A stretch of DNA of 64,000 bases from the NCBI RefSeq assembly GCF_013179735.1, contig NZ_JABMEG010000001.1, positions 2,728,001-2,792,000 of the forward strand, given 5' to 3'. Shown piece by piece: positions 10,844 through 17,193 of this stretch. Under the pieces are notes generated by a model. That model saw nothing but the letters and a program-made list of their open reading frames with translations, searched no databases and had not been told where the DNA came from. A program made the position numbers and the translations under genes. This DNA is from Permianibacter fluminis. GTDB taxonomy: Bacteria > Pseudomonadota > Gammaproteobacteria > Enterobacterales > Permianibacteraceae. How positions within the stretch are numbered: the stretch's first letter is position 1; each line of letters begins with the position of its first letter.

Positions 10844-11051
10844 GCAGGGCTCCTGAGCGGTGGGGCGGAAAGCGGGGGAACGGCTTGCGCCAGCGTGCCA
10901 GCAAAAGATAGAACAGAATCCGGCACTTGCGAAGGCCGGCACGGAAGTCGGCCTTCGCGCCGGCAAAAATCGACCTGATTAGTTATACCTCTCGGCGGGA
11001 CGCTCTCAATCGCCCGTTCATGGTTCGATGCCGCAAAGCAAATCCCCTTGC

Positions 11052-11126
11052 GGGACAGGCTCACCACGAACGGTGAGTGACGAGCTGCAGGGTAAAAAGG
11101 CCGTTCGCCCTGAGCTTGTCGAAGGG
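11052..11126. repeat. Dispersed inverted repeat (CGTTCGCCCTGAGCTTGTCG type)
   Basis: Two arms of a widespread bacterial intergenic palindrome: GGGACAGGCTCACCACGAACG at about 11052 and, in reverse, CCGTTCGCCCTGAGCTTGTC at 11101. It sits in the 380-base gap between the Sel1 lipoprotein and the calpain-like gene; no gene is seen in that gap. Confidence 0.7.
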
Positions 11127-11159
11127 TAACGGCATGCGAACTGAGATATCTGCCTAATC

Positions 11160-11190
11160 AGAAAAAAGAAGGGGTGACTCGCACCCCTTC
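11160..11190 (-). terminator. Terminator of the calpain-like gene
   Basis: Stem GAAGGGGTG / CACCCCTTC with a five-base loop; read on the minus strand it is followed by TTCTTTTTT. It lies 35 bases after the calpain-like stop. Confidence 0.9.
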
Positions 11191-11224
11191 CGACCCGTCG
11201 CAGCTCAGCCGCGTTTGTGAGGGT

Positions 11225-12592
11225 CTATTTGACCACGCCAATCCCGGCAAAGTATTGCTGGAAGGCGCCGGCCTCGATTGCAAAGGTGCCATCGGGATTG
11301 GCCAGCTCAATCGGTCGCCACCAGCTGATGTCATACATCCAGACCGTGGCGTTGAGGGCGCTGGCGGTGCCTTCGGTCTGACCCCAGGGATTGCGCAGCA
11401 CCAGGTATTTCTTGCCGCAGTGATAATCCCAGCCGAGCACGGTGTAACAGTGGGAGCCGACGATGTTGGCATCGGCATAGCTGAGCCCGTCGGGCGCGGT
11501 GCCGTAGGTCCAGCAGGTCATCGGATTGAACGTGCGCCGGCTCAGGCTGTTGGAGCGGACCAGATTCCAGATGTCGTCACCGGTCATGCTGCTGTTGCCA
11601 TAGTAATGGCGCTGGCCGCCGGTCAGCTGCGCCGTTGCCAGCACACAGTCGCCCCAGCCGGTTGCGAGAATGTCGGGGTGATCGGTGGTGGTGCCGGTGA
11701 CGAATTTGGCGAACGCTTTTTCCATGATGGCGGGCCAGGTTTCGCCGGCTTCGCTGGAACGGCAATAGATGAAATTGCCGGTCGCATTGCTGACCGGTAC
11801 GACATCGGTGACTTCAATTTCCTTGTCTATCTGACCGCCGCTGTCCGGTTTGAAGAACTTCACCAGATTGGTAAAGCTCTGCTGGTTCTGGCCGATGGCG
11901 CGGGTCAGGTGCGCAATGCGGTAGGGCGATGCCCAGGCAATGGCTGCCAACGCGGCAATGTAATAGCAGTTGGCCACCGCACCCTGAACCGGATCAAAAA
12001 ACTCGGCTGTTTCATTGAAGAACGTACCTTTGTCGGTCCAGTTGGCATTGGGCGGCGTCCAGTCCTGATTGCTGTTGCCTTTCAGCTCCGGATCAAATGC
12101 CACGGTTTGCAGCAGTGACTTCGGCAGAATCTGCGCCAGTTGCTGCAGCCGATCCTTGCTTGGCAGTTTCAGCGTCAGCTCAATCTGGAAGGGGTTGCAC
12201 AGCCGGATGTTGTGGATCGCCAGCTTGGCGACATCGGTTACCTCAAAACGCCGGGCCAGATCGCCCAACACCTTGACGTTGGTCATCAGTTCTTCAACCG
12301 GAGTTTCCAGATCACTGGTGCCGAGCTTGACCGTGACGTCGAACAGCGGCGAGTGAAACGGCTCCAGCGTCTTGTTCTTGTTCAGCTTCAGGCCGAGGTA
12401 CAAGGGGCTGTCGTATTTCGGATCAAACAGCTCTTCATAAGGCGTTGCGAGCAGCGTCTCCAGCATGCGCGGTGCATCGACTTCGGACCAGGCAATGCGG
12501 CGGCCGGCGATGGTCTCGGCGAGCGCGTACGGATTGATGACGCCGTTCTTTTGAGCGGCGTTGGCTTGGCTTTGGATCTTGGTCACGTCCAT
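11225..12592 (-). CDS. Calpain-type (clan CA, C2-like) cysteine protease
   Basis: A 455-residue protein with the catalytic triad of calpain-family cysteine peptidases. Cys209 lies in QGAVANCYYIAALAAIA (compare the calpain consensus with Gly-Asp-Cys-Trp followed by Ala-Ala-Leu). His381 lies in GSHCYTVLGW, and Asn401 in LRNPWG. The first 190 residues have no recognised domain. No signal peptide is visible from the ATG at 12592, which has AGGA about nine bases upstream. The frame continues upstream to 12715 without a good start. Bacterial calpain homologues are sporadic and often of unknown role. It is divergent from an endolysin/holin pair across a 0.8 kb structured gap, which suggests it might be a cargo or partner of that module. 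The protease call is firm; the role is inference. Confidence 0.85.
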   Translation of the reverse strand: MDVTKIQSQANAAQKNGVINPYALAETIAGRRIAWSEVDAPRMLETLLATPYEELFDPKYDSPLYLGLKLNKNKTLEPFHSPLFDVTVKLGTSDLETPVEELMTNVKVLGDLARRFEVTDVAKLAIHNIRLCNPFQIELTLKLPSKDRLQQLAQILPKSLLQTVAFDPELKGNSNQDWTPPNANWTDKGTFFNETAEFFDPVQGAVANCYYIAALAAIAWASPYRIAHLTRAIGQNQQSFTNLVKFFKPDSGGQIDKEIEVTDVVPVSNATGNFIYCRSSEAGETWPAIMEKAFAKFVTGTTTDHPDILATGWGDCVLATAQLTGGQRHYYGNSSMTGDDIWNLVRSNSLSRRTFNPMTCWTYGTAPDGLSYADANIVGSHCYTVLGWDYHCGKKYLVLRNPWGQTEGTASALNATVWMYDISWWRPIELANPDGTFAIEAGAFQQYFAGIGVVK

Positions 12593-12861
12593 GGTTTCAA
12601 TTCCTTGTGCAAGTAAAAAAACTTGAAAGGCGAAACCCGGCGAGTTCAGCAAGGGCAATTCGAGGCTAGCGAAGGCTCGATGCCAGCAGGCACATCCGTG
12701 GAACAACTGATGCAAACGCGATCGGTCCTGACGTCATGACAGCATCCTGTGCCATGCCGGCAAATCCACAGCCATCTGCGCGTGCAGAACAACTCCGCGA
12801 CGATCACCCGCCTGAATCCTCCAGATTTCGTGGCGGTGATGACTACGGCTTGACTGAAAAT

Positions 12862-13099
12862 TGCCGATAGCAGTCGTTATCGGCAGGCTTAGGTATAAAC
12901 CTGTCGTCGAGAGGGTTCAATGACAAACCGACGACAGTTCAATGAACTGCAGTCACTAAAACCAAATGCCATAACTCCGGTCGCCCTGATGGCTGCAGGC
13001 TCTATAGCTACCGGCCCTGAAGAGTCCCGACTTAACCAAGGCTAAGTCGTTCTGGCGGGGATGCAGGGACGCTTCCATTTTGGTTTAACCAGAGCGTCC
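12862..13099. other. Hairpin-rich non-coding segment, possible structured RNA or operator cluster
   Basis: The 809-base gap between the divergent calpain and endolysin genes has no convincing ORF. It holds a chain of strong inverted repeats: TGCCGATA/TATCGGCA (12862-12885), CTGTCGTCG/CGACGACAG (12901-12937), CAGTTCA-A-TGAACTG (12936-12950), CCGGT/ACCGG (12977-13014), CGACTTA/TAAGTCG (13028-13049) and GGACGCT/AGCGTCC (13067-13099). None ends in a T-run. The series could be a multi-stem leader or small RNA, or regulator binding sites for the two divergent units. No known riboswitch was recognised. Confidence 0.5.
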
Positions 13100-13401
13100 A
13101 GGTGCCGGATGGCCTTGTCCAGCCAGCTTCTTTAAAAGTCGCTGGTCGGCACAAGGCTCGGCTATCGCCGGTTTATGGCCAGATTCCGGCAAAAAGCGCG
13201 AATGATGGCTTGCTATTGAAGACCGGCGTGCCTATTGTTTGCGTCGCAGCACAGGGAGTTGTGCGATTGATCGACCCGGCCGCTTTTGCTCCTGCGGCAC
13301 GTCTCCAGCAAGTCGCGTTGTCCCCTCTGAAAATTCCTCTGGGCCTGTCGGCCCAGTCAATCTGTTGACCAGATTTCTGATCGGGAAATGAGGGCTTTGC
13401 C

Positions 13402-13926
13402 ATGGCTATATTTGAGCCTGCCTACGAGCGGACCATCCGCAATGAAGGCGGCTATCGATTGGAAAATGTCGCCGGTGATCGCGGTGGCCTGACTTACGCT
13501 GGCATTGCCCGCAATGCCAATCCCAACTGGCCCGGCTGGCTCATCATCGACCGCGGCGAAATGAACAACCCGCAACTGACACCGATGGTGCGTGAGCTCT
13601 ACAAGAAAACCTATTGGGATCCCATCAAAGGCGATGCGATCACCTCGCAGGGCATTGCCGAAGCCATTTACGATTTTGCGGTCAATGCCGGCGTCCGCAC
13701 CGCCAGCAAGCTGGCCCAGATCGTCGTCAACACCACCCCCGATGGTTACCTCGGCGACAAGACGGTGGCGGCGCTGAACACCTGGGAAGAGTCGGCCTTC
13801 ATTGCCAACTACGCGCTGGCCAAAGTGGCGCGCTATGCCGAAATCTGCAATCGAGATCGCAGCCAAAGCAAATTTCTGCTGGGCTGGCTTAACCGAACCA
13901 TCAACGGATTGAAGGGGGCCGCATGA
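13402..13926 (+). CDS. Phage-type endolysin, glycoside hydrolase family 108 N-acetylmuramidase
   Basis: A 174-residue peptidoglycan hydrolase. The N-terminal GH108 domain has the catalytic Glu15 in RNEGGY, then VAGDRGGLTYAGI and ELYKKTYWDP. The C-terminal half, with FAVNAGVRTASKLAQ and DGYLGDKTVAALN, matches the peptidoglycan-binding domain usually fused to GH108. No signal peptide is present, so export would rely on the holin encoded next to it. The start ATG has GAGG upstream. The stop overlaps the holin start (ATGA), showing translational coupling. Such proteins act in phage lysis and in holin-dependent secretion. Confidence 0.93.
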   Translation: MAIFEPAYERTIRNEGGYRLENVAGDRGGLTYAGIARNANPNWPGWLIIDRGEMNNPQLTPMVRELYKKTYWDPIKGDAITSQGIAEAIYDFAVNAGVRTASKLAQIVVNTTPDGYLGDKTVAALNTWEESAFIANYALAKVARYAEICNRDRSQSKFLLGWLNRTINGLKGAA

Positions 13927-14414
13927 GCGTCAGCATTCCCGGCATTGGAGCCATCGTCGAAGGCGTCGGCAAAGTGGCCGATGATCTGTTTACCTCGGAT
14001 GAAGAGCGGCTGAAGATCTCGCTGGAAGAAAAGCAGATTGAGGCCAGCCTGACCCAGGGACAATTGGAGGTCAACAAAGCCGAAGCCAGCAATCCCAACA
14101 TGTTTGTGGCCGGCTGGCGGCCGTTCATTGGTTGGGTAGGCGGCTTTGCTCTCGCGTATCAATTTTTGCTGTATCCGTTTCTGACCTGGGGCTGGGCTCT
14201 GATGCAGGCACGCAACTGGGTGCCTGCCAACTCGACGCCGCCGCCGCCGCTCGCCGCCGATATTCTCTGGACCATTGTCACCGGCATGCTCGGCATCGCC
14301 GGCATGCGCAGCTACGACAAGATGAAAGGGACTGACACCAGAGAAATGACCGCGGAAAAGCCGGCAGCGTCAACACCGGTCAGCAAGCCGCCAAAGCGTG
14401 GGCCGAGAGGCTGA
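13923..14414 (+). CDS. Holin of the 3TM family
   Basis: A 163-residue protein matching the family described as holin of three transmembrane segments for gene-transfer-agent release. It has an amphipathic N-terminus with charged helices (SDEERLKISLEEKQIEA), the family signature NPNMFVAGWRPFIGWVG (about 60-76), a hydrophobic segment at about 72-95, another at about 117-130, and a basic Pro-rich tail. Its ATG overlaps the endolysin stop by four bases. It would make membrane lesions that let the muramidase reach the cell wall. No phage structural genes lie near. Confidence 0.88.
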   Translation: MSVSIPGIGAIVEGVGKVADDLFTSDEERLKISLEEKQIEASLTQGQLEVNKAEASNPNMFVAGWRPFIGWVGGFALAYQFLLYPFLTWGWALMQARNWVPANSTPPPPLAADILWTIVTGMLGIAGMRSYDKMKGTDTREMTAEKPAASTPVSKPPKRGPRG

Positions 14415-14482
14415 GTCTCACGATTCCGAGCCACACGATTCCCAGCTACACAATTACAAAAACAACATAACAAGAGGATGGA

Positions 14483-15919
14483 ATGTTGAAGACGCTTCTC
14501 GCTGTACTGTTGAGTCTGCTGGTGCTGTCGAGCCATGCCAGCACCGACGTAGTGGACAATCGAATCAAGGGCGTCTCCGAGTTTCTGTTGGAGCGGGCCA
14601 ACGATAACTGGCTTTATGTCGTCGAGGCGCAGATCAAGGACAACGCGCTTTTCTCCTGCTATTTCCCGAACACCTACAAGCAGATGACCTCGGGCAATCT
14701 GAAGTTGCTACTGAGTGCGGGAAATGAAGTGTGGGCAGGCGTTGTTGAGGAAGATCTGAAAGGGCTCGGCAGTCGCTACATGGTGCGGGTCCTGGCGAGC
14801 GAAAAATTCAGCCGCTCCGTTGATGCTTTGCGCGACAAGTACATATCGGCGGTATTGCAGCGGTTTGATATTGAACACAATGGCAAGCGCTATCCCATCG
14901 ATCAGTTGCCATTGAATGCCGACGCCGAATTAAAGACTGCGGTCAACCGGTTTTCCAACTCGTTGAGCGATGCCTTTGCGGCGGTCGAATCGCTTAAGCA
15001 AAAAGCCAGATTGGCTGGCGCCAGTCGGGACTGTTCGACTCAGCCAAGCTTGCTGAGGGAAGCCAATGATGCGGTCAAAAAAATGGAGGCCGCCGTTCGC
15101 GATATACGGATTAATGCCGGACAATTGTTGCCGCGAACCGGACTGTCACTGGGCGGCAGTAGCCTCGACGAGATTGCTACCGGCGCCGACCTTGATGAGC
15201 TGTTGATTCGCCTGCTGGCCTTGGATTCGGCGGAACTATCCGATTTGTTTGATCTCAGCCAGATGAAGACGGCCAAAAACTACACCATGCGTGTACTGGA
15301 GGCCGAGGCAATATTGAGTCGTCTGAGTGAACTTGGCTTGGCTCCGATTGAGTTATCACCAGACTCCAAGGCGTATGCACGGTTCCGCCGTTACGTGCTG
15401 TCCGTTGCCGTGCTGTCTGATGCCGAATCCTCGGATCAGGTCAAAGTCGCTTTGCAGGAAATGACGCTGCCTCCCGTCAGTTTTGGCCTGAAACGCCAGC
15501 CGGAAGAGTCAACCGTAATGCTGACGTCCTATCTCGGTCTGTCCGCCGGAATGGAGCGCAATGACGAAGACGGCAATTCCGGCATATACGGATTGTTTGC
15601 TCCGGTCGGCCTGGAATACAGCTATGGCTTGTCCAACAAGCGTTCACTCAGTCTGGTGCTGGCGCCGCTTGATTTTGCGTACCCACTGAGTCTGGAGCTC
15701 AACGATCAGAAAGAGTCGGTCGAGTGGCAGGACATTGTCCGGCCCAGCTTGAGCCTGACCTATGGCCTGAAGGATTATCCCATAGCCATCGGTTTTGCAG
15801 TCAGCCGTGGCCGGCCGCTGACCTCGGATGCTGATTCAGATGGTGGCTCCGATGGAAAAAAAGAAACCCAGTATTTCATCTTCGTCGCTTTTGACATGCC
15901 GCTGTTTCAGGTGTTCTGA
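14483..15919 (+). CDS. Secreted protein with putative C-terminal outer-membrane barrel
   Basis: A 478-residue protein I do not recognise. The first 19 residues are a signal peptide (cleavage near SHA-ST). Residues 20-330 are helical and charged, with one Cys pair candidate (about 58 and 189). From about 345 the sequence alternates hydrophobic and polar residues as beta strands (YLGLSAGMER, GLEYSYGLSNKRSLSLVLAPLD). It ends FVAFDMPLFQVF, a C-terminal Phe with the alternation used by BAM-inserted outer-membrane proteins. The start has AGAGGA upstream. It lies 68 bases after the holin in the same direction, with no terminator between, so the three genes probably form one operon. A spanin-like or pore role is speculation. 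Confidence 0.6.
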   Translation: MLKTLLAVLLSLLVLSSHASTDVVDNRIKGVSEFLLERANDNWLYVVEAQIKDNALFSCYFPNTYKQMTSGNLKLLLSAGNEVWAGVVEEDLKGLGSRYMVRVLASEKFSRSVDALRDKYISAVLQRFDIEHNGKRYPIDQLPLNADAELKTAVNRFSNSLSDAFAAVESLKQKARLAGASRDCSTQPSLLREANDAVKKMEAAVRDIRINAGQLLPRTGLSLGGSSLDEIATGADLDELLIRLLALDSAELSDLFDLSQMKTAKNYTMRVLEAEAILSRLSELGLAPIELSPDSKAYARFRRYVLSVAVLSDAESSDQVKVALQEMTLPPVSFGLKRQPEESTVMLTSYLGLSAGMERNDEDGNSGIYGLFAPVGLEYSYGLSNKRSLSLVLAPLDFAYPLSLELNDQKESVEWQDIVRPSLSLTYGLKDYPIAIGFAVSRGRPLTSDADSDGGSDGKKETQYFIFVAFDMPLFQVF

Positions 15920-15944
15920 ACTGTAGGAATGAGCGCAACGACGG

Positions 15945-15970
15945 TAGGGCGGGCCAAGGCCCGCCCTTTT
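15945..15970 (+). terminator. Terminator of the endolysin-holin-barrel operon (REP-like palindrome)
   Basis: GGGCGGGCC, two A, GGCCCGCCC and TTTT. It begins with GTAGG, like the REP-like palindromes elsewhere in the window, so one of those repeats appears to serve as terminator here. Confidence 0.85.
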
Positions 15971-15975
15971 GATGT

Positions 15976-17193
15976 TTACTGCAGGTGTTCGGAATGCTGC
16001 TGCGCTTTCTGCGTCGCAGGCTGCTCGCGGAGAATGGCTTGTATCATCGACTCGGAGTAGCTTTCGTCGCTGTCTTCACTACGAGTCAGCATGGCGCGCC
16101 ATAGCGGTACCGGTGCCATCGGGTAACTGTTGAAGCGCTTGAAACCACAGGCATAGAAGCCGCGATAGATCGTCACGTCGTCCTTGAGGTCATCGCATTC
16201 CTTCAGCAACTTCTGGGCATACTGATCGGCCATTTCTTCGGTGAAGATGCCCGTCGCGCGCATGGCTTCCAGCATGATGGCCTCGGCACCGCCTTCATGG
16301 ATCCACGGATCGTTCTCGCCGATGCCGCCGCGTGCCAGATTGTTCTGCCAGACATGCGCCATCTCGTGCGCAACCAAACCGGCCATAAAAGCGCGTCGCT
16401 TGGGGTGGTCTTCCATCAAGCCACGCCCTTGCAGACGATAAACCACGCCACCACCGACCACACCACCTTTGATGCTGATGCTGCCCGGCTCACCGTCGAA
16501 ACCGATCATTGCCACCGAGATCAGCGGGGTATCGGTCAACTTGCGTTGAAACGCCTGCTCGTAAAATTGCGAGACCTTTGCTGTGGTGTCGGCAATGGTG
16601 TCACGCAGCCAGGCGGGGGCCAGCGGGTCGATGATCACATTCGCATTGCCCATGCGCGCAGGTTTGCTTGGCCCGAAGTAGGCGTATCCGGCCAGATCGG
16701 CACCGGGTTTGCTGGGCGCGAGCACGGTTTCTCCGGTCAGCCCCTGCAAATGCAGTGTGACGGCCATGTCGCGCTTGTGCTCGCTCTGGCCCAGTGATCC
16801 ATACAGAAAGCCCAGATAAAAATCCGCGCCACCGTCGGAGAAATGATTGATCGGCGCGTATTGATCCAGCTCGAAATTGCTATAGCGGCTGATTTCCACG
16901 CTCAACTGGGTCAGTGGCTTGTTGCTGCGCAGGCTTTCATTGTTGTCCTGCACGACCAAATCCACGCCATTGGTCAGCAGACGCCACGCCTGCTTGCGAT
17001 AGGTACCGATTTGCGGACCCAGCTCAATGGCCGTGACGGGTTCGGCAAACACATAGTCGGCGCGCCATTTGTCAGTGGCGATATGGGTCAAGGTCAGTTC
17101 GGTACGCAGCGGGGCGGGGTCTGCGGCGTGGGCAGTACCCATGAACACAACAAACAGCAAACCGGCGCAAGATGAGCGGATTGGCAACGGCAT
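15976..17193 (-). CDS. Secreted gluzincin metallopeptidase (M1-like)
   Basis: A 405-residue exported protein with signal peptide (cleavage at AHA-AD, residue 23). The zinc site is HEMAH at 276-280, with the third ligand likely Glu300 in WIHEGGAEA, 19 residues beyond the second His, the spacing of M1/M61-type gluzincins. The N-terminal 190 residues look like a beta-rich domain as in M1 proteins. Two Cys pairs occur in the C-terminal part. No GAMEN-type aminopeptidase motif is evident, so endo- or exopeptidase activity is open. It is convergent with the endolysin operon and apparently a single gene. Confidence 0.75.
   Translation of the reverse strand: MPLPIRSSCAGLLFVVFMGTAHAADPAPLRTELTLTHIATDKWRADYVFAEPVTAIELGPQIGTYRKQAWRLLTNGVDLVVQDNNESLRSNKPLTQLSVEISRYSNFELDQYAPINHFSDGGADFYLGFLYGSLGQSEHKRDMAVTLHLQGLTGETVLAPSKPGADLAGYAYFGPSKPARMGNANVIIDPLAPAWLRDTIADTTAKVSQFYEQAFQRKLTDTPLISVAMIGFDGEPGSISIKGGVVGGGVVYRLQGRGLMEDHPKRRAFMAGLVAHEMAHVWQNNLARGGIGENDPWIHEGGAEAIMLEAMRATGIFTEEMADQYAQKLLKECDDLKDDVTIYRGFYACGFKRFNSYPMAPVPLWRAMLTRSEDSDESYSESMIQAILREQPATQKAQQHSEHLQ

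Follow-up and report, generated by a model that had tools for sequence, protein, structure and literature searches.

A muramidase-holin pair of phage descent in the chromosome of Permianibacter fluminis, possibly a stranded or domesticated lysis cassette

Introduction

What is a muramidase-holin pair doing in a bacterial chromosome where no other phage gene is recognized around it, and do the calpain-type protease and the predicted outer-membrane protein beside it belong to it? The question is raised by a locus of Permianibacter fluminis in a stretch of 64,000 nucleotides (nt) of the 4.36-Mb genome (G000:C1:2728001-2792000), referred to here as the window. An earlier note, made from the sequence alone, had read the four genes as a possible lysis-type export locus, with the protease as cargo and the outer-membrane protein ("barrel" protein) as the outer-membrane step. 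Our data point toward a phage lysis cassette that may have lost the rest of the phage or arrived without it, and we favor, at about even confidence, the reading that it is now stranded or domesticated in a short chromosomal unit of muramidase, holin, and outer-membrane protein. The gene calls placed all four genes where the earlier note had them, and the locus comprises the following features:

11167..11191, minus strand: terminator-like hairpin past the end of the calpain gene (pattern scan)
11225..12592, minus strand: calpain-type cysteine protease (Peptidase_C2), 455 amino acids (aa); divergent, likely a separate unit (Pfam)
12593..13401, no strand: gap of 809 bp between the calpain and muramidase genes; single copy in the genome
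13402..13926, plus strand: GH108 N-acetylmuramidase (endolysin) with PG_binding_3, 174 aa (Pfam, PHROGs, alignment)
13923..14414, plus strand: holin of the GTA 3TM family, 163 aa (Pfam, PHROGs, ATGA junction)
14483..15919, plus strand: exported protein with a helical N-terminal part and a predicted C-terminal outer-membrane beta domain, 478 aa
15946..15967, plus strand: terminator-like hairpin (9 pairs, 8 of them GC) ending the putative muramidase-holin-barrel unit (pattern scan)

Results

Phage descent of the muramidase and the holin

The muramidase matched Glyco_hydro_108 (1.5e-17) and PG_binding_3 (1.6e-11) in Pfam and the endolysin family phrog_315 (3.6e-33) in PHROGs, and no signal peptide is apparent by eye. 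Its EGG motif at residues 15 to 17 is kept together with the surroundings (E15, G16, G17, D26, G28, and G29 are invariant in alignments A1 and A5), and we take the glutamate of this motif to be catalytic. The holin matched GTA_holin_3TM (PF11351) at 2.2e-22, with 80.3 bits against a cutoff of 24.8, and phrog_3427 at 2.6e-30. Hydropathy gave clear peaks at residues ~67 to 88 and ~109 to 130 and a weaker peak at 3 to 19; the three spans come from the family name, and the GTA in that name, taken alone, is no evidence for a gene transfer agent. Both frames are intact, and the muramidase stop codon TGA (13924-13926) overlaps the holin ATG (13923-13925) in the ATGA junction that the earlier note had described.

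By descent, the pair is a phage lysis cassette, as judged by comparison with viral sequences. A tblastn search of 50,697 phage records matched the holin in 52 of them and the muramidase in 388, and viral identities reached 64% for the muramidase and 60% for the holin. In record MW202665.1 (Podoviridae sp. ctXG1253), the two genes lie side by side immediately before head-completion and terminase genes; this cassette shares with the window pair both families, their order, and their adjacency, with identities of 43.6% (muramidase) and 48.3% (holin). We inspected 89 viral loci, that is, 86 IMG/VR loci with either protein (the holin matches behind them being the best 80, among the matches listed) and three stretches of two phage records. 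The muramidase gene preceded the holin gene in 15 of them and followed it in 2 more, several being near-copies of each other, and 6 of the 7 viral muramidase/holin junctions shown were ATGA or TAATG. Ten proteins from four viral loci (L145, L017, L019, and L097), chosen beforehand as probable virion genes, fell into PHROGs of head-and-packaging or connector proteins (nine) or tail fibers (one), and the pair lay near portal, terminase, or other virion genes in all five viral loci checked. One outcome that the earlier note had named as refuting its reading, a pair lying next to phage genes in relatives, largely applies: viral relatives carry it beside portal or terminase genes. In a muramidase tree of 49 rows, from which 7 near-duplicate rows (including L145, on the same contig as L016) and hits below 60 bits were omitted, the rows nearest to the window were viral. 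Ten phage-free and nine viral rows formed one clade (support, 100/99), with the reservation that the label "phage-free" had been given before the tree to top-scoring chromosomal loci, whose clustering is partly by construction.

Surroundings and transcription of the pair

The window pair differs from the phage cassettes in what surrounds it. Of the 46 window open reading frames (ORFs) of at least 110 aa, 41 were scanned against PHROGs (5 were left out, one of them replaced by a Sel1 frame), and 39 families were matched at 1e-5, most PHROGs carrying no named function. Among the matches listed (25 of the 39 families), there was no virion or integrase family besides endolysin and holin, and the head, tail, packaging, and integration genes of an intact prophage were not recognized. 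To this extent, the statement of the earlier note that head, tail, and integrase genes are missing holds; no search aimed at repressors was made. Repeats that might mark attachment sites were limited to short imperfect pairs, none of them convincing, and the window has no tRNA gene. An empty-site comparison with the sister species was given up, the flanks not being syntenic in the stretches compared.

Muramidase, holin, and barrel genes are likely transcribed together and the calpain gene by itself, judging from the gene arrangement. Holin and barrel genes are separated by 68 bp in which the pattern scan found no terminator-like site; between 11000 and 16200, 10 terminator-like patterns were found, compared to 5.1 expected in shuffles. 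Rfam gave no match in 12000-14600. The third-position GC content (GC3) of the muramidase/holin pair is 0.71 and thus inside the range of its neighbors (0.65 to 0.76), giving no sign of very recent arrival.

The barrel protein

No Pfam match over the cutoff was obtained for the barrel protein. By eye, it has a leader-like N terminus and a C-terminal F, and an AlphaFold model built on a four-row alignment (mean pLDDT, 64.9) is mainly helical to residue ~326 and has seven strands between 343 and 476. Matches to OmpA-type structures had a probability of 0.92 to 0.94 but E values of 0.03 to 0.05, and nothing at an E value of 0.001 or better was found in PDB or BFVD; OmpA-type structures are the most plausible nearest neighbors, and we regard the protein as a probable outer-membrane protein. 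The secreted protein with an outer-membrane-type C terminus of the earlier note is thus plausible from the leader and the modeled strands, though not proven. To judge from its position alone, the protein probably belongs with the muramidase/holin pair.

The barrel gene was found in 1 of 59 relatives and in 2 of 369 genomes of the class, the own genome included in both counts. Scanning genome contigs gave no locus at first and, in a second scan with a two-row alignment, three loci, one of them already known from G091. The outside relatives number three (L120/L155, L156, and L157; 28 to 39% identity by tblastn), and searches of their flanks with the window muramidase, the A1 muramidase profile, and the holin gave nothing, the L156 flanks being short (~1.3 kb ahead of the barrel gene, 0.6 kb behind it). 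With these flanks free of lysis genes, the barrel protein was rejected as a dedicated outer-membrane partner of the pair. Phage records yielded no relative of the barrel protein, and viral contigs gave none with six peptide patterns, whose reach is limited to close relatives. Behind one of the barrel relatives (L120:10068-12668, UBA6915), a large protein that looks by eye like a lipoprotein with repeats runs off the contig.

The calpain-type protease

The protease matched Peptidase_C2 at 5.8e-23 (Pfam). Of two possible starts, the ATG at 12592, preceded on the same strand by AAGGA, is more likely than the TTG at 12715 farther upstream. Motifs with Cys, His, and Asn lie at residues 203 to 209, 380 to 385, and 399 to 404, placed by analogy with the catalytic triad described in the available part of PMC4631099. 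The same part of that source describes bacterial calpain homologues (family C2) as rare and patchy, with a predicted signal peptide in only 3 of 66. The window protein agrees with them in the triad motifs, in lacking a signal peptide (by eye), and in its rare, patchy occurrence; it differs in ~200 N-terminal residues without a Pfam match. The gene is indeed divergent and leaderless, as the earlier note had it, but because so few bacterial calpains have a predicted signal peptide, the missing leader is not a sign of cargo.

Calpain matches were found in 2 of 59 relatives (the own genome and G001) and in 1 of 274 class genomes at 1e-20 (the own genome). The orthologue in G001, a sister species of the same genus, is 71% identical; by eye, its gene has that of an unrelated secreted protein on one side and a peptidase-like gene on the other. 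G001 gave no match to the holin or the barrel protein and none to the muramidase at 1e-15, and the best G001 match of the Sel1 gene that neighbors the locus in the window lies 1.4 Mb from the G001 calpain. No calpain relative was seen in viral contigs with peptide patterns reaching close relatives only. The calpain beside the lysis pair is probably a chance neighbor.

Recurrence in other genomes

The holin was found in 2 of 59 relatives (the own genome and G021). In G021, the 3TM-family holin has another kind of lysis-type protein as its neighbor, one that by eye carries SH3-like repeats (L004:1348-3094, G021:C7). Conservation of the four-gene neighborhood, which the earlier note had named as a check, was not borne out: among these relatives and class genomes it was seen in the own genome alone, and a search of the open-access literature found no description of this arrangement.

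The pair itself has a wider occurrence. GH108 relatives of this type were present in 21 of 369 class genomes (1e-10) and in 29 of 394 order genomes (1e-15), own genome included; 20 of the 28 order matches from other genomes were inspected, and among L195 to L219 the neighbors were read for L195. Muramidase/holin pairs without virion families in the ORFs scanned were found in four further genomes (L186 in G637, L188 in G677, L146 in G258, and L191 in G044), the L191 holin being weak (phrog_3427 at 2.1e-8, no Pfam match at 0.01, and a silent PF11351 search in G044). Five loci (L147, L148, L187, L189, and L190) have the muramidase with no recognized holin among the ORFs scanned. For these nine loci, PHROGs searches covered part of the ORFs (21, 28, and 38 proteins). 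In L189:8152-11238 and L190:8143-11286, from two species of one genus, a lone GH108 gene lies between genes for a 499-aa and a 215-aa protein; the order is conserved, the muramidases are 72.7% identical, and this suggests that at least some orphan muramidases are kept by their hosts. Together with the four phage-free pairs, it also suggests that muramidases of this subfamily can be maintained as genes of bacteria. BLAST with viral ORFs was abandoned as a prophage detector because it was too insensitive, giving one hit each on L192, L193, and L194, which look like prophages by eye.

Other GH108 genes were met in other settings. The pair of L188 ends a row of nine co-directional genes (L188:9239-18324, G677:C18), most of them without a Pfam match, several paralogous by eye, and two with PASTA domains. 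The Pvc16_N gene directly ahead of a GH108 gene in L150:8781-10262 (G127:C29) suggests a Pvc-type cluster for contractile injection. At L195:8932-10220 (G608:C8), one ORF separates a more distant GH108 gene from that of a 3TM-family holin, in a cluster that looks prophage-like by eye, and the own genome's second GH108 gene (L151:9976-10449, G000:C1:2432975) lies beside long tail-like ORFs (by eye), probably in a prophage.

Discussion

That the pair recurs in four other genomes of the class, with no virion genes recognized around it, is in keeping with lysis cassettes that bacteria put to use. Going by the protein families from which the mechanism is drawn, the holin would build up in the inner membrane and open it at a threshold, whereupon the leaderless muramidase would escape to the periplasm and cut peptidoglycan. 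Cells expressing the unit, presumably only some of them, would lyse or be weakened, with their cytoplasm spilled. The barrel protein, probably co-transcribed, would reach the outer membrane independently by the Sec route and may or may not assist the final step, possibly as a stand-in for spanins. With no spanin candidate found in 13201-14700, the cell may depend on spanins encoded elsewhere or on another weakness of the outer membrane, or a wall-less cell may be the outcome.

Several observations weigh against a stranded or domesticated cassette at work in its host. Among ORFs of at least 35 aa on both strands of 13201-14700, the stretch checked, no spanin candidate was found (the single ORF with a lipobox pattern falls within the holin gene), and thus complete lysis of a Gram-negative cell is left unexplained. 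A plus-strand terminator-like pattern lies within the holin gene (13964-13983), and no sigma-70-like promoter was found in 11000-16200, compared to 2.0 expected. The distribution is sporadic, with the pair in 1 of 3 genomes examined of its own family and the muramidase, at 1e-30, in 2 of 40 genomes from the family to which G677 belongs, and this would also fit a decaying remnant. Finally, some close GH108/holin neighbors lie in clusters that look prophage-like by eye (L195).

Such a remnant would be the last two genes of a vanished prophage, unused, with barrel and calpain as unrelated neighbors. The phage ancestry of the pair agrees with it, as do the sporadic distribution and the finding that the stretches compared with the sister species are not syntenic here. 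However, both frames are intact and tightly coupled, the EGG motif is kept, no other phage gene was recognized in the window among the matches listed, and the same retention of a lysis pair and nothing else would have to have happened again in four further genomes; we regard decay as rather unlikely. Highly improbable, in our view, is a type 10-like secretion system in which the pair releases the calpain and the barrel protein provides the outer-membrane step. It would account for a holin and a peptidoglycan hydrolase in adjacent genes outside a recognized prophage, with a leaderless hydrolase and a protein that is probably in the outer membrane as neighbors, and it has a parallel in TtsA, described as a homologue of bacteriophage muramidases, which acts in typhoid toxin secretion (PMC9527704 and PMC10109510, available parts). 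The calpain, however, occurs without the pair in the sister species and is divergent and 809 bp away, leaderless calpains are the bacterial norm (PMC4631099, same part), lysis genes are missing from the examined flanks of the barrel relatives, and neither a cargo conserved with or coupled to the cassette nor the spanin genes that belong to the cluster in the definition of PMC10847048 (available part) were found, the latter in 13201-14700. The definition in the available part of PMC10109510 does not name spanins. No second genome was found to hold both calpain and pair, and we rejected the calpain as cargo as unsupported; of the export locus proposed in the earlier note, there remains a lysis pair that stands outside a recognized prophage and recurs in four other genomes of the class, whereas the four-gene block was found in no other genome examined and the calpain of the sister species stands alone.

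A regulated cell-death module, with a cysteine protease acting either ahead of the lysis pair or jointly with it, is hardly probable at all, although a cysteine protease adjoins the muramidase in 4 of 10 phage-free loci of this muramidase clade (window, L146, L147, and L148), or in 3 of 8 if the sister pairs L147/L148 and L189/L190 are counted once. In L146:9496-14117 (G258:C72), co-directional genes encode a Ser/Thr kinase, a caspase C14 plus Sel1 protein whose leader looks lipoprotein-like by eye, a GH108 muramidase, and a 3TM-family holin, the last two overlapping by ATGA. (L146 is chromosomal and adjoins ruv- and tol-like genes by eye.) In L147:7712-10263 and L148:9104-11537, from two different families of the class, the gene of a papain C1 protease (616 to 641 aa) lies directly upstream of GH108, with gaps of 41 and 13 bp, and the proteases are 52% identical. 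Yet two of the four loci, L147 and L148, are sisters; the calpain gene of the window points away from the pair, which its orthologue lacks; and in four plasmids, opened out of 23 records, papain relatives had no annotated GH108 gene beside them. Moreover, the class "cysteine protease" was picked after looking; in the other six phage-free loci, none of 21 neighbors within two ORFs (holins omitted) matched a cysteine peptidase family at 1e-5, one of them being a metallopeptidase. The broader proposal that this GH108 subfamily, often with a 3TM-family holin, was repeatedly recruited as the killing arm of lysis modules gated or accompanied by cysteine proteases is very unlikely; if true, bacteria would have a counterpart to cell death under protease control, and the window would be its calpain form beside caspase and papain ones.

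TtsA probably shares the GH108/PG_binding_3 architecture of the window muramidase. Compared by description, both are signal-less phage-type muramidases in a bacterial chromosome (PMC9527704 and PMC10109510); they differ in that the window muramidase has an adjacent holin and no linked toxin. With the type 10 systems Serratia ChiWXYZ and Yersinia YenLC, the locus has in common a holin and a peptidoglycan hydrolase outside a prophage. Those systems, as described in the available part of PMC10847048, have spanins, a transcriptionally coupled cargo, and a hydrolase that cleaves peptidoglycan crosslinks, whereas at this locus no spanin candidate was found (13201-14700), no cargo is demonstrated, and the enzyme is a GH108 muramidase. 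Type 10 systems are reported there to work through lysis of part of the cells, in which spanins deal with the outer membrane last, while other authors favor nonlytic release (PMC9527704 and PMC10109510).

Where lysis cassettes stand outside phages, large toxins and enzymes are reported to be released by the sacrifice of a fraction of the cells (PMC10847048, same part). A stranded or domesticated cassette in the window would be a further example of such already known phage-free cassettes, and its recurrence is possibly of interest. If host-used, phage-free GH108/holin pairs would extend these cassettes to a form that relies on a muramidase and has no spanins next to it, and regulated lysis could be tested in more bacteria; if not, the locus cautions that a holin-endolysin pair beside a leaderless enzyme does not by itself make a secretion system.

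Beyond the barrel gene and convergent with it, the minus strand of the window (15976-17193) encodes a secreted metallopeptidase-like protein whose BSP match (0.0012) is under the cutoff and whose match in the sister species is only 28%.

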